Shown piece after piece: positions 28,791 to 35,212 of a stretch of DNA of 42,400 nt; within the stretch, counting starts at the first letter, position 1, and the number at the start of each line of letters is the position of its first letter. The notes beneath the pieces are model-generated. The model did no database searches and was not told the DNA's origin. It saw only the letters and a program-made list of their open reading frames with translations. Made by a program: the position numbers and the translations under genes. Source of the DNA: Candidatus Pacearchaeota archaeon (GTDB lineage: Archaea; Nanobdellota; Nanobdellia; Pacearchaeales; GW2011-AR1); contig JACPGZ010000041.1 of NCBI GenBank assembly GCA_016188895.1, positions 1 to 42,400 on the forward strand. The letters are read 5' to 3'.

Positions 28791-31478
28791 TTGAATGGGA
28801 TGATAACGAAAGAAGAAGCGAAAGATAAGTTAAAAAGACTAATATCAGATTTCCCTAAACATACATATCATAATGAAGAAAATTTGAAGTTTAACTATAT
28901 AGAACCCTTGCTTATGGAAATTTTAGGCTGGGATAGAGAAAATATAATTAAAGAACAGAGAGTTTTGAAGGGGAGAGCAGATTATATATTGAAGATTGGC
29001 AACGAAGAAGTTTTGGTTATTGAAACTAAACGCCCAAATGTCTCGCTAAATGAAGAAGAAGGTAGGCAGGCTGTTTCCTATGCTTATCACAGAAAGATTA
29101 AGTTTGCTGTTCTAACTAATTTTAAAGAAATTAAAGTTTATCATGCCTTAAGCAATATTAAAAATATCGATAAGAATTTATTAAAATTTGAAACAGGCGG
29201 ATTATTTAGAATTCCGATTGACCAATTCTTAACAAATTTTGATAAACTTTTTCTTTTATCTAGAGAAAGTTTTGAGAAAGGAGAAATAAATAAACTTTTA
29301 TCAAAGAAAGATGAAAAATTAGCTAAGCCAATTGATAAAAGTATCTTAGACGATTTACTTGAGATTAGAGAATGGCTATCGAAAGATCTTAAGAAATTAA
29401 GATTGCATCTTACGAAAGAACAGATTGATGAAATTGTACAGATTCTTATTGACCGATTCATATTTATGCGTTCGGTAGAAGATCGAGGCTTAGAGGAAAG
29501 AGATTTCTTATTAAAAATGGTTAAAGACTTTCAAGAAGGCAGAACTAATAAAAGGTTATGGGAATCTCTCAAAATAAAATTCAAGATTTTTGATAAGGAA
29601 TATAACTCTAATCTCTTTAGTGAAGGATTACTCGAAAAAGAAGGCTTTTTTGATGAGCAAATCTTGAGTAAGGTGATCAAAGAACTTTATTTTGGGAATG
29701 AAGGGCAACAAGAACGTTATATGTTTGATGAAATTCCAGGAGATTTGTTGGGAAGTATTTATGAACAATATTTAGGAACTGTTTTACAAGGAACAGAAAA
29801 GCGAGTAAAACTTGAATCAGAAAGTGGAAAAAGAAAGAAGATGGGAATTTATTACACACCATCTTATATTGTTGATTATATTGTAAAAAATACAGTAGGA
29901 GAATACATCAAAGATAAAACAATTGATGAAATTTTAGAAGTTAGAATTCTTGATCCTGCTTGCGGTTCTGGAAGTTTCTTAACAAAAGCATTTCAAGAAG
30001 TTGCCAAAGCAATAGAGGAAAGATTAAAGAAAGGGGAAAAGGCAAAAAATTATCAAGCATTTCAAAGTTATAATGGAAGATTAACATTAGGACAAAAAGC
30101 AACTATTTTATTGAATTGTATTCATGGTGTTGATTTAGATGAAAAGGCTGTTGAACTTGCACAATTAATTCTTTTATTAAAGCTTTTGGAAGATGAAACC
30201 CCAGAAACAAAAAGACGGCTTTTGCCAAATATGAAAGACAACATAAAAAATGGAAATTCTTTAATTGATGACCCAAAAATTGCAGGAAATAAGGCTTTCA
30301 ACTGGCATGCCCAATTCCCAGATGTTTTTAGACAAGGCGGATTTGATGTTGTTATTGGAAATCCGCCGTATGGTGCCAAATTAACAAATGAAGAAAAGAA
30401 ATATCTTGATAAAAATATAATAAAAGACAAATCTCAAGACACTGCTAATTATTTCATAACTAAAAATATTAAATTATTAAAAATAAATGGCAAGTTAGGA
30501 TTTATAGTACCAAAGGGGCTAAGTTATGTTCCCTCTTCACAGAATGTAAGGGAGGAAGTGATAAAGAATAAAATAAATTTCTTAATTGATGTTTCTGAAG
30601 CATTTGGAAAAGATGTACAATATGAGCAATTGATTATTATTATTTCAAAGGAGGATAGAGATTATAATAATTTTATAAATGGATTTTTTGCGAATGGTAA
30701 ATTTAATGAAAACCAATCTCCCAAAGAGATATTATCAAAAGAAAGACTCTTGATGTGGATAAATAATCACAATTTTAATATAATTAAGAAAATAATAAAT
30801 AATTCTATAAAATTAGATGAGATAGCTAAATCAAGAAGAGGGTTAGGTTGCAACAAATATGTCTCTACTGAAAAAAATGATTTTATCTGTCTTAAAGGGC
30901 AAAATGTTCAGAGATATCGTTTAGATAGAAGAAATTATATTTCTAAAAATAAGATAAATCAAGAATATAAATGGCTTCTAACTGATAAAATAATTGCCCA
31001 AGAAATAGTTGGAAGGTACGGTAAACCTTTGTTTGGAAATTTCAGAAATGTACAGCTTAAAGCAACTTTAGATTTAGATAATTCACTAACTTTAGACACC
31101 GTGGTAAATATCTTTAATATAGAAGGATATGATATAAAATTTGTGTTAGCTTTACTTAATTCAAGATTAATGTCTTGGTTTTTTCATATTTATTTTTACA
31201 ATAAAGCACAAATAACAGTGCATTTCGGCAACGAATATGTAAGAAACTTCCCAATTCCTAAAAAAATAGACAAAAAACAAGAACAAAAAGTAACTTCTTT
31301 GGTAGATGAAATGCTAAAATTGCAGAAACAACTTCACGAAGGAAATCCAACAGGAAATGAAAAAGAAAGGTTAGAACAGCAAATCAAAAATATTGATTAT
31401 GAAATTGACCAAGAAGTTTATAAGCTGTATGGGTTGACCAAAGAGGAGATTAAAATTGTTGAGGAGAGTTTGAAATGA
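28791..31478 (+). CDS. Type IIG restriction-modification enzyme (HsdR_N-like nuclease + N6-adenine methylase)
   Basis: RADYILKIGNEEVLVIETKRP, DPACGSGSFL motif I, NPPYG motif IV, LYGLTKEEIKIVEESLK tail. Confidence 0.9.
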   Translation: MNGMITKEEAKDKLKRLISDFPKHTYHNEENLKFNYIEPLLMEILGWDRENIIKEQRVLKGRADYILKIGNEEVLVIETKRPNVSLNEEEGRQAVSYAYHRKIKFAVLTNFKEIKVYHALSNIKNIDKNLLKFETGGLFRIPIDQFLTNFDKLFLLSRESFEKGEINKLLSKKDEKLAKPIDKSILDDLLEIREWLSKDLKKLRLHLTKEQIDEIVQILIDRFIFMRSVEDRGLEERDFLLKMVKDFQEGRTNKRLWESLKIKFKIFDKEYNSNLFSEGLLEKEGFFDEQILSKVIKELYFGNEGQQERYMFDEIPGDLLGSIYEQYLGTVLQGTEKRVKLESESGKRKKMGIYYTPSYIVDYIVKNTVGEYIKDKTIDEILEVRILDPACGSGSFLTKAFQEVAKAIEERLKKGEKAKNYQAFQSYNGRLTLGQKATILLNCIHGVDLDEKAVELAQLILLLKLLEDETPETKRRLLPNMKDNIKNGNSLIDDPKIAGNKAFNWHAQFPDVFRQGGFDVVIGNPPYGAKLTNEEKKYLDKNIIKDKSQDTANYFITKNIKLLKINGKLGFIVPKGLSYVPSSQNVREEVIKNKINFLIDVSEAFGKDVQYEQLIIIISKEDRDYNNFINGFFANGKFNENQSPKEILSKERLLMWINNHNFNIIKKIINNSIKLDEIAKSRRGLGCNKYVSTEKNDFICLKGQNVQRYRLDRRNYISKNKINQEYKWLLTDKIIAQEIVGRYGKPLFGNFRNVQLKATLDLDNSLTLDTVVNIFNIEGYDIKFVLALLNSRLMSWFFHIYFYNKAQITVHFGNEYVRNFPIPKKIDKKQEQKVTSLVDEMLKLQKQLHEGNPTGNEKERLEQQIKNIDYEIDQEVYKLYGLTKEEIKIVEESLK

Positions 31479-32095
31479 ATAATCTATTTTCTGGAACACA
31501 AGAAAAAACATTTTATTTATGGATAGACCTTAATAACCCTATAGTTAAACACAATTTCAAAATTGGTTCTTTTGTTTCATCTAATTTTCTCCCTGCAAAG
31601 GGGGAAGACCATTTAATGTTTTTGCCAAATCCTAATTTCAGTAATTTTATAAGTCCTTTTCAAATGAATCTTCTTAATAGCTATCTTGCGGAATATAATT
31701 TAGAATTGAGTAGAAGAGCTTTCTATAAAAATTATCCAAATAGATTAGTCGCGACATTCTTATTTGATTATAAAGAGGAGGCGGACAAATATAAAGAAAG
31801 AAATCAAGAACTTGTAAAAAATAGAAAGTTGGTAAAAGGAAAATCTTTTGGAAATTGTATTTATTCGAAACATGATTTATCATGGATAGACTTTCTTAGA
31901 CTGAATGGTTCAAAAGATCAAGAAACCATTAATAATATTTGTAAATCTTATTGGGAAGGAAAAGTTGTCAAAGAATGCAAATTAATGCATTTTGGTAGCG
32001 AGTGGTCTGAAGACTCAATTTTTGAGATTCTTTTCTATGGAAAGATAAATTTTGACAAAGAAGAGCAGAAAATTATTGAGGAGAGCTTGAAATGA
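31475..32095 (+). CDS. Hypothetical protein in RM operon, ends IIEESLK
   Basis: ATGA overlap with RM gene. Confidence 0.65.
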   Translation: MNNLFSGTQEKTFYLWIDLNNPIVKHNFKIGSFVSSNFLPAKGEDHLMFLPNPNFSNFISPFQMNLLNSYLAEYNLELSRRAFYKNYPNRLVATFLFDYKEEADKYKERNQELVKNRKLVKGKSFGNCIYSKHDLSWIDFLRLNGSKDQETINNICKSYWEGKVVKECKLMHFGSEWSEDSIFEILFYGKINFDKEEQKIIEESLK

Positions 32096-32505
32096 CAGAA
32101 GAAGAAACTGAAAATGAAGAAGAGAAAATAGTAAAGGCTTCTTGCAGCTTTTGTGGAAAAGAAATAGAATGTCCAGAAAAAATGCTAAAGGTTGATAAAC
32201 ACATGTGCTATGAATGTTATAAAAATCCTCCAGTAGAAATATCAGAAAAAGAATTGTCTAAAATCCATATAGATATTCCAATAAATAAACTAAATGAAAT
32301 GTTTTATGATGCAGTAGCTACTCAAATGAAAGAAATAGCCTTTCCTAAGATATGGCAAGAACGCAAATCAGAACTTAAAGAAATATCAAAAAAAGAATTA
32401 GCTGAGTTAATGTTCTTAGAGGGTGCGATGGCAGGGGCTGGGTTTTTATTCGAAACCATGAAAGATAAGGAAGAAAATGATATTGTCGAGGAGAGTTTAA
32501 AGTGA
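32092..32505 (+). CDS. Zinc-finger hypothetical protein in RM operon, ends IVEESLK
   Basis: CSFCGKEIECP...MCYECY; ATGA overlap. Confidence 0.65.
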   Translation: MTEEETENEEEKIVKASCSFCGKEIECPEKMLKVDKHMCYECYKNPPVEISEKELSKIHIDIPINKLNEMFYDAVATQMKEIAFPKIWQERKSELKEISKKELAELMFLEGAMAGAGFLFETMKDKEENDIVEESLK

Positions 32506-32906
32506 ATGATTTAGAATTAATGGACGAAATGCAGAAAAATCACAGTTTCCAAGGGCAGATGAATGGTATGGCTAAGTCTATTGAAATAGTAATAGATAAA
32601 ATTTTAGAGCAAAACGACGTAAAACCACGAGGGTCATTTGGGAATAGAATTAAACAATTTAAGGAAGTCTGTCCAGAATTTCCTGAATTGCTTGGAGATT
32701 TAATGAACTTTAATGAGTTCTGGAACATTACGAAACATGGGGTAATAATTATGGGTGCGGACATATCGGAGTCTTTTTTTAAGGATGAGGAAACACACAA
32801 GTTTAATCAACAAAGGAAAGAAGAGATATCTAAGAACTTTACAGAAGTTATGAAAAAACTAATAGTGATTTCTAAAAAAAAAGTTATTGAAGAGAGTTTG
32901 AAATGA
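32502..32906 (+). CDS. Helical hypothetical protein in RM operon, ends VIEESLK
   Basis: GTG start in overlap; FNEFWNITKHG reminiscent of HEPN-like folds (weak). Confidence 0.6.
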   Translation: MNDLELMDEMQKNHSFQGQMNGMAKSIEIVIDKILEQNDVKPRGSFGNRIKQFKEVCPEFPELLGDLMNFNEFWNITKHGVIIMGADISESFFKDEETHKFNQQRKEEISKNFTEVMKKLIVISKKKVIEESLK

Positions 32907-33376
32907 GTGAAACAATATTAGATTATGATAAAATAATATGGGAAGTTTTTGCCATCGGAGTTACTGCTTCTATTATAATCTTGTATAATGTCGTAAATTT
33001 AGAAAGTAAAATACCTAAGAACTTTGATGTTTTGGTACTGATTCTTGGTTTTTCTATACTAATCTATTCTTCCATTTTGTTTTTAGGTTATAATTTTAAA
33101 AAAAGTATTTTTATTAACTCAGATTCTAAAAATAAAATTAAGGAAAAGCTAGAAAAGAGTTGGTATCCTAGAGCAAGATGGATGGCAGAAATAATATTAC
33201 TTTTTATAATAATATTATATTTTAAAGCATTCACGGAAAAATGGATCCCAATAGTTATTCTATTGATTACCATAGTAATTTGTAGTATTGCTAATTGTTG
33301 TGCTAAGAAAAAAGTTCAAAAAAACAATTGGGTAGGTTATTGTAATTATTTTAAATCTTATTTTCGCTGTCAATAA
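32903..33376 (+). CDS. Four-TM membrane protein in RM operon
   Basis: ATGA overlap, four hydrophobic segments. Confidence 0.6.
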   Translation: MSETILDYDKIIWEVFAIGVTASIIILYNVVNLESKIPKNFDVLVLILGFSILIYSSILFLGYNFKKSIFINSDSKNKIKEKLEKSWYPRARWMAEIILLFIIILYFKAFTEKWIPIVILLITIVICSIANCCAKKKVQKNNWVGYCNYFKSYFRCQ

Positions 33377-33521
33377 CTCTTTCTTCAAACACCCTCACCA
33401 TCTGAGGACTTGGCAAATCTATGTCGTGCTGGACAAAAATTGGGTAGATGTTATCGAGGAGAGTCTTAATTAAATAATAGGCCATAGTTACATTATTAAA
33501 TATCAAAATATTAGGTAAAAT

Positions 33522-33939: not shown

Positions 33940-34577
33940 ATTTTAATTTTTTGCTCACGAGACCAGAACATGATGATACAACTTTTTATTTGTCCAACTG
34001 GTGTAAAGATGGTCTTGATTTAGCAGGAAAAAAGGGAGCAAAAATTAGCGACTTACATCGTGATAAGGCAAATAAAAAGGAGTTTGAAGGAAGAGTTTAT
34101 AAATCTTGTCCGGAATTTATTGTTTTCAATGGACATGGAGACGAAAATTCTGTTACAGGGCATAAGAATGAAGAGCTAATCTCGGTAGAAAGTGATGAAA
34201 AATTTTTAAAGTTAAATATAGTTTATGCAATTTCTTGTCGTTCTGCTAAAAATTTAGGTAAAAAATGTATTGAAAAAGGAACAAATTGTTATGTGGGCTA
34301 TACAGATGATTTTATTTTTGTTTACGAAAAAGAAAAAATAAGCAGACCATTAACTGACGAAACTGCTAAACTTTTTTTGGAACCATCAAAATTATTCATA
34401 GAAGCGGTAATCAAAAATAATTCCGTGAAAGATGCTCTAGAGCGCTCAAAGAAAAAAATTCAAGAAAACTTCATTAAAACTTTGTCTGGAGACGAACAAG
34501 AAACTACTCTGGCAAGGTATCTTTGGTGGAACTCAAGAAATTTTATATCTCTAGGAAATCAAAATGCTACAATATGA
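33936..34577 (+). CDS. Caspase/gingipain/CHAT-like (clan CD) cysteine peptidase
   Basis: FIVFNGHGDENSVTGH (His) and IVYAISCRSAKNLG (Cys) with alternating beta strands. Confidence 0.7.
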   Translation: MNFNFLLTRPEHDDTTFYLSNWCKDGLDLAGKKGAKISDLHRDKANKKEFEGRVYKSCPEFIVFNGHGDENSVTGHKNEELISVESDEKFLKLNIVYAISCRSAKNLGKKCIEKGTNCYVGYTDDFIFVYEKEKISRPLTDETAKLFLEPSKLFIEAVIKNNSVKDALERSKKKIQENFIKTLSGDEQETTLARYLWWNSRNFISLGNQNATI

Positions 34578-35212
34578 AAATGACCTACATTCTCTCCCCA
34601 TCTTCATTGAATCTTCTTGAGGAATGCCCGAGATGTTTTTATTTGCAAGTTGTCAGAAAAATAAGAAGGCCAAGAGGACCAATGTCTTCTATTCCGATAA
34701 AGATGGATTCTATTATTAAGAAGTACTTTGATATTTATAGGGAGAAAGGAATTTTACCGCCATTAATTGAAAAGAAGGTTAAAGGTGTTCTTCCTCTTGA
34801 TATGCCAAAAACATTATACTATGAAGATGAAAATAATGGAATAAAACTAAAAGGACTCCCAGACGAGTATTTACAAACTGAAGATGAAGCTATTGTCCCT
34901 TTTGACCATAAAACTAAAAGCAAAGCTCCAAAAGAAACGCATCCACGCTATCAGCTACAATTAGAATGCTATACTTTTCTTTTAGAAGCTAATGGATATA
35001 AAACTAAGAATTTTGGATATTTAGCTTATTATCATCCAGAGCAATGCGAGATACATAATGGAATGGATATTCAGGTGAATATTATCAAAGTCAAAACTGA
35101 CCCAGAAAGAGTTAAGAAAGCTCTCAAAAAGGCTTCTGAAATCTTAAATGGAAAACTGCCTAAAATTAACAGAACATGCGAATATTGCAAGTGGAAAGGA
35201 ATAAAATTATAA
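34574..35212 (+). CDS. PD-(D/E)XK nuclease, Cas4/RecB-like with Cys cluster
   Basis: LSPSSLNLLEECPRCFYLQ, IVPFDHKTKSKAP, C-terminal CEYCKW. Confidence 0.8.
   Translation: MKMTYILSPSSLNLLEECPRCFYLQVVRKIRRPRGPMSSIPIKMDSIIKKYFDIYREKGILPPLIEKKVKGVLPLDMPKTLYYEDENNGIKLKGLPDEYLQTEDEAIVPFDHKTKSKAPKETHPRYQLQLECYTFLLEANGYKTKNFGYLAYYHPEQCEIHNGMDIQVNIIKVKTDPERVKKALKKASEILNGKLPKINRTCEYCKWKGIKL

Follow-up and report, generated by a model that had tools for sequence, protein, structure and literature searches.

In the window, that is, the whole 42,400-nucleotide stretch analyzed here from a Candidatus Pacearchaeota archaeon (contig JACPGZ010000041.1), four consecutive open reading frames (ORFs; 28791-31478, 31475-32095, 32092-32505, and 32502-32906) end in [IV][IV]EESLK, and each end carries the start of the following gene. 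This arrangement raises the question of how unrelated genes came to be separated by one homologous junction. The explanation we regard as probable is that the five junction copies of the locus are 3' ends of type IIG restriction-modification (RM) genes, the first belonging to the gene now present and the other four being fossils, left by a turnover of the locus in which the start signal was retained.

The type IIG gene and the repeated junction

The first ORF combines in a single chain of 895 residues an HSDR_N-like nuclease, an N6 methylase/Eco57I region, and a TaqI_C specificity domain. Its matches to Pfam (Eco57I, 4e-33; N6_Mtase, 5e-22; TaqI_C, 7e-13; HSDR_N_2, 9e-7) and PADLOC (REase_MTase_IIG, 2e-111) identify it as a type IIG (Eco57I-like) enzyme, for which cleavage and methylation activities are predicted. 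The ORF begins with TTG at 28791; the true start may be an ATG a few codons downstream. The enzyme ends with LYGLTKEEIKIVEESLK, and since its homologues conserve LYGITxEExKIIEESLK, the RM enzyme can be named as the source of the tail, in agreement with the sequence-only reading of this DNA. By this comparison, the junction copies derive from type IIG gene ends.

A scan of the window with a degenerate 24-mer, allowing up to three mismatches, gave five matches against 0.03 expected, and none of 100 shuffles gave five. All five copies that the sequence-only reading had listed were thus recovered, the 24-mer of copy 2 covering 32072-32095 (the other copies are given in Table 1), as were the EESLK-type ends on four consecutive ORFs. 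In a search of the whole 0.97-Mb genome, an 18-nt junction core was found without mismatch only in copies 1 to 4; with one mismatch, copy 5 and two unrelated sites on other contigs were added. The number of copies, together with the lack of any other full match to the core in the genome, argues against chance. KEE is common to copies 1 to 3 with identical spacing, as had been noted before, although the KEE of copy 3 may be native to that protein.

Each of the first four copies also provides a stop codon and a start codon, again as previously described: the starts at 31475, 32092, 32502, and 32903 overlap the upstream stops by 4 nt (ATGA, ATGA, GTGA, and ATGA, in this order), and AGGAG (AAGAG in copy 4) lies 8 nt upstream of each. 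The genome contains GGATCACCTCCT, which we take to be the 3' end of the 16S rRNA, so that AGGAG should be able to pair. A core of GAGGAG plus ATGA is a good reinitiation site, and selection for a start signal within the gene end could in principle have produced EESLK-like endings independently. Such convergence is very improbable, however, as the identity reaches upstream of the start signal (KEEQKII, EEKKIIEESLK, KEIEIVEKEVG) and the full core occurs at no other site in the genome; this upstream identity and the longer remnants of up to 190 codons described below led us to reject chance and convergence alike. Termination-reinitiation coupled by overlaps is known experimentally in archaea and bacteria (PMC6728339). 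The gene pairs described there resemble the present ones in their ATGA overlaps and in having the start signal inside the upstream gene, but they are ordinary pairs, whereas at the present locus the same homologous junction recurs between genes that are unrelated.

Table 1. Features of the locus, followed by a gene family found near RM tails in three other loci
Feature	Position	Strand	Remark
Type IIG restriction enzyme-methyltransferase, 895 aa	28791..31478	+	Pfam, PADLOC; last codons form junction copy 1
Junction copy 1	31455..31478	+	3' end of current RM gene, AGGAG, ATGA start of gene A
Accessory ORF A, 206 aa	31475..32095	+	ends KEEQKIIEESLK
Junction copy 2, about 37 nt	32057..32095	+	nearest to tails of other RM alleles
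Accessory ORF B, 137 aa	32092..32505	+	CxxC zinc-finger-like
Junction copy 3	32482..32505	+	GTGA start of gene C
Accessory ORF C, 134 aa	32502..32906	+	ends [IV][IV]EESLK
Junction copy 4	32883..32906	+	ATGA start of gene D
Accessory ORF D, 157 aa	32903..33376	+	predicted membrane protein, without tail
Junction copy 5	33450..33473	+	noncoding, 48 nt before gene E; degraded 3' remnant of a former RM gene
Operon E-F-G, 65, 72, and 213 aa	33522..34577	+	conserved; originally behind a former RM gene, judging from RM-tail remnants in relatives
Zinc-ribbon gene, 81 aa	L094, 7482-7727
Zinc-ribbon gene, 81 aa	L192, 10340-10582
Zinc-ribbon gene, 81 aa	L274, 6846-7091

Accessory ORFs and the remnant upstream of E-F-G

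The small genes of the array were compared with their relatives elsewhere. Homologues of B are present in 17 other genomes of the phylum, none with an EESLK end; in 2 of these 17, B directly follows an RM-tail remnant, making three genomes together with the window, and elsewhere it stands alone. The single homologue of C, in genome G048, stops short of the tail. The tail was therefore acquired with the location, and the alignments show that it does not belong to B or C by origin. Small proteins of this kind may thus carry C-terminal tails that are scars rather than functional tags. ORF A has no family match and no second copy in the genome, and Pfam and PADLOC assigned no function to A, C, E, F, or G. 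A viral origin was considered and rejected, relatives of ORF A being missing from viral contigs and the tail being nearly absent there (4 weak loci); plasmids contain only distant type IIG relatives.

Copy 5 is best understood from locus L128, in another Pacearchaeota genome (G488), in which the E-F-G operon is conserved at 80 to 83% identity. Just upstream of the operon, L128 contains DYEIDQEVYKLYGLTKEEIKIVEESLK, 27 codons whose translation matches the C-terminal 27 residues of the window RM enzyme without a difference, whereas the RM gene of L128 itself has a different end and lies 2 kb further upstream. Copy 5 occupies the corresponding position in the window, and the two DNA sequences can be aligned through it and on into gene E. 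As shown by the 27-codon version preserved in the syntenic locus, the copy that the sequence-only reading had called degenerate, and had placed beyond the last ORF, is a genuine remnant. RM-tail remnants upstream of E-F-G also occur in G448 and G269, suggesting that an RM gene once directly preceded the operon and, given the tails in the window and L128, that both genomes have since gained different intervening genes. Copy 5 and gene E are separated by a spacing of their own, so that this copy is not kept as a ribosome site, a point against retention for the start signal in its case.

Concerning the operon itself, gene G occurs in 22 of the 181 genomes of the family, in most cases next to homologues of E and/or F, and has an invariant NGHG followed by an invariant Cys, a caspase/C25-like pair; one member weakly matches Peptidase_C25 (0.0023). 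A structure prediction for gene G based on two sequences was poor (pLDDT, 36), and no defence model matched E-F-G, which is possibly an uncharacterised protease system. A solo Cas4-like PD-(D/E)XK nuclease gene (34574-35212) directly follows.

Tails and body-less remnants in other genomes

A pattern scan and a hidden Markov model of the tail (last 64 residues) were applied to 371 genomes of the phylum, and 80 of the 295 tail-bearing genome stretches were examined as named loci. The scan returned many tail-only pieces adjoining full genes; the pattern recurs in many other archaea and in some bacteria, and other genomes keep the tail without the body. In G373, the RM gene ends in IIEENLK, the next ORF in VAEEKKIIEESLK, and a third copy is a noncoding leader; in G015 and G021, a downstream ORF that looks PIN-like on visual inspection alone has the ending VIEESLK or FKESLR. 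L140 features a 401-aa ORF ending in KEEKRVIEESLK followed by a 164-aa ORF ending in ESILESLR. EIEIVEKEVG ends both the RM gene and the next ORF of L138, the corresponding ends in L128 are IIEESLG and KILEESLG, and G080 has two bare leader copies before small genes. Bacterial and methanogen examples include L183 (Methanoregula, with three different RM endings), L188 (Ignavibacteria), and L189 (Methanoregulaceae). The earlier description of a cassette-like array thus extends to other genomes, whose arrays hold other genes.

As a control, the last 24 nt of each gene were searched for matches of at least 19/24 within the next 6 kb. RM ends were repeated downstream in 7 of 76 cases, with no such match on the opposite strand, compared with 2 of 517 other ORFs (Fisher p of about 1e-5), and both of these were tail-bearing array ORFs (A of the window and one in L140).

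Like endings on three accessory proteins of the window could also represent a C-terminal peptide tag with a function of its own, such as sorting, stability, or partner binding, which the sequence-only reading had offered as an alternative. Since the tails vary by locus (EVG, SLG, SLR, SLK) and some copies are noncoding leaders (G080, L192, the third copy of G373, and copy 5 of the window), this reading fails, and with B and C homologues lacking the tail we give it hardly any credence.

More than a dozen remnants consist of an RM C terminus without the body, spanning about 8 to 190 codons; all end at the RM stop, which mostly coincides with the start of the following gene or lies shortly before it. 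Against a panel of RM proteins, body-less C-terminal remnants (G160:C33, G029, G358, L128, G328, G047, G191, and L183, among others) amounted to 3% to 18% of the RM gene. In G160:C56, G417:C88, and G238:C10, an RM N terminus is fused to the tail, the last case being a 34-codon minigene, MVLRKLTKEEAKEEVKKLYGITDEEKRIIEDSLK, that directly overlaps the next start. A matching N-terminal profile search found, inside contigs, only one candidate N-terminal remnant, 0.2 kb from a contig end, and three further cases that were fusions or pseudogenes with multiple stops; the N-terminal profile is somewhat less sensitive and the C-terminal one better conserved, so that this asymmetry is somewhat inflated. 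A separate observation concerns L303 (G153:C1, 1-370), a type IIG gene with an internal deletion in which 62 N-terminal codons remain, IENEIDEEVYKLYGIT is out of frame, and the tail is lost.

Allelic origin, proposed turnover, and known systems

The copies were aligned at their 3' ends against type IIG tails. Most are closer to the tails of other alleles than to the RM gene now upstream: copy 2 of the window is nearest to L052, L097, and L057 and not to the local RM gene, the G373 copies to L106 and L107, the L140 copy to L098, and that of G160:C33 to L287. Copies of 24 to 37 nt carry little phylogenetic signal, so that these assignments are individually weak; the longer remnants hold more. 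Overall, the matches to foreign alleles make the copies look like 3' fossils and not like duplications of the resident tail.

The latter had been the central proposal of the sequence-only reading, according to which small genes were inserted serially at the stop codon of the resident RM gene, each insertion duplicating its tail as a target. Some loci do fit: in L138 and L189, the local RM gene is the best match of the copy, the RM end (IVEKEVG) and next-ORF end (EIEIVEKEVG) of L138 being identical at 34 of 36 nt, and L128 reuses the unusual SLG ending. Insertion of RM genes with long and variable target duplications, the closest process so far described, has, moreover, been reported (Nobusato et al. 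2000, as cited in PMC3031569). As summarised there, such events resemble the present locus in involving RM genes, variable-length direct repeats at the junctions, and no transposase; they differ in that known RM units enter other genes, whereas here an RM gene is trailed by a string of non-RM genes and itself supplies the repeat from its 3' end, serially and coupled to starts. For most loci, however, the closer match to foreign alleles, the lengths ranging from about 8 to 190 codons, and the loss of gene bodies evident from the N-terminus-to-tail fusions do not fit, and we consider duplication of the resident tail rather unlikely as the general explanation, even if simple duplication may also occur, given L138 and L189.

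Turnover leaving 3' fossils fits better with tails that persist after body loss, with the fusions, and with the variable lengths. Both the type IIG genes and the small genes that follow them would turn over repeatedly at the site; the body of an older RM gene would be lost and its last codons would persist, because AGGAG lies within them and the following gene starts in overlap with them. Predicted translational coupling is a plausible reason for such retention, given the position of AGGAG 8 nt before the overlapping starts. The deletion would often end in frame within the preceding small gene, giving that gene an EESLK tail, and ribosomes finishing the tailed gene would restart on the next one, yielding a layered, translationally coupled operon. 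By our own tally, 9 of 16 short copies are fused in frame to the preceding ORF, a proportion that exceeds one in three weakly (p of about 0.02 to 0.05). None of the loci searched had an accessory gene flanked by two complete type IIG genes in tandem. The order of events, the selection for the start signal, and the coupling are thus parts of a model that we infer from the arrangement of the remnants.

Integron arrays, too, consist of single-gene units that follow one another in the same orientation and share a junction, and the same gene families occur behind tails in different genomes, as would be expected if the junction were the site of a specific recombinase. This integron-like alternative is improbable: no Pfam recombinase was found among the neighbours scanned (25.4-37.3 kb), none of the five junctions formed a hairpin in folding calculations (all were unstructured as single-stranded DNA), and, unlike integron sites, the junctions are coding derived and variable in length, their sequence tracking type IIG lineages. 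Elements integrating at gene 3' ends leave a displaced 3' fragment, and the intact gene, cargo, and 3' fragment beside the old neighbour have a parallel in L128; here, however, there are many repeats separating single genes and no integrase was seen at the locus. Defence islands around BREX/PglX and type IIG genes likewise place a restriction-type gene amid variable accessory genes, but gain of genes in such islands is not known to leave gene-end fossils serving as ribosome start sites. No description of arrays separated by restriction-gene ends was found in the open-access literature, of which coverage was incomplete.

The proposed turnover with retained 3' ends suggests how genomes lacking integrons could add small genes to a defence operon with each gene still being translated. 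More speculatively, the type IIG 3' end might be a general capture site in archaea and bacteria, a recombinase-free gene-gathering platform in which the tails record the order of passage and the cargo is probably defence related. An RM tail before a gene of unknown function would be a simple sequence mark for accessory genes travelling with restriction systems.

Several gene families were encountered at such tails. The zinc-ribbon gene of Table 1 (SAHNxDWHxxMCDxCFNKE) lies behind or near RM-tail copies in three genomes, and G219 (L235) has a fusion of it with a B-like domain. DUF1016/YhcG nuclease genes begin directly at the RM tail in L093 (6577-7596, minus strand) and L095 (8234-8776), the latter copy appearing truncated. 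Finally, a gene pair (MEFISLKNVS... and SDAAEGITKG...) lies downstream of RM arrays in L095 (8818-9733) and L046 (5240-5539, minus strand), in genomes of two families (f1 and f41), as though the pair had been shuffled from one array to another.
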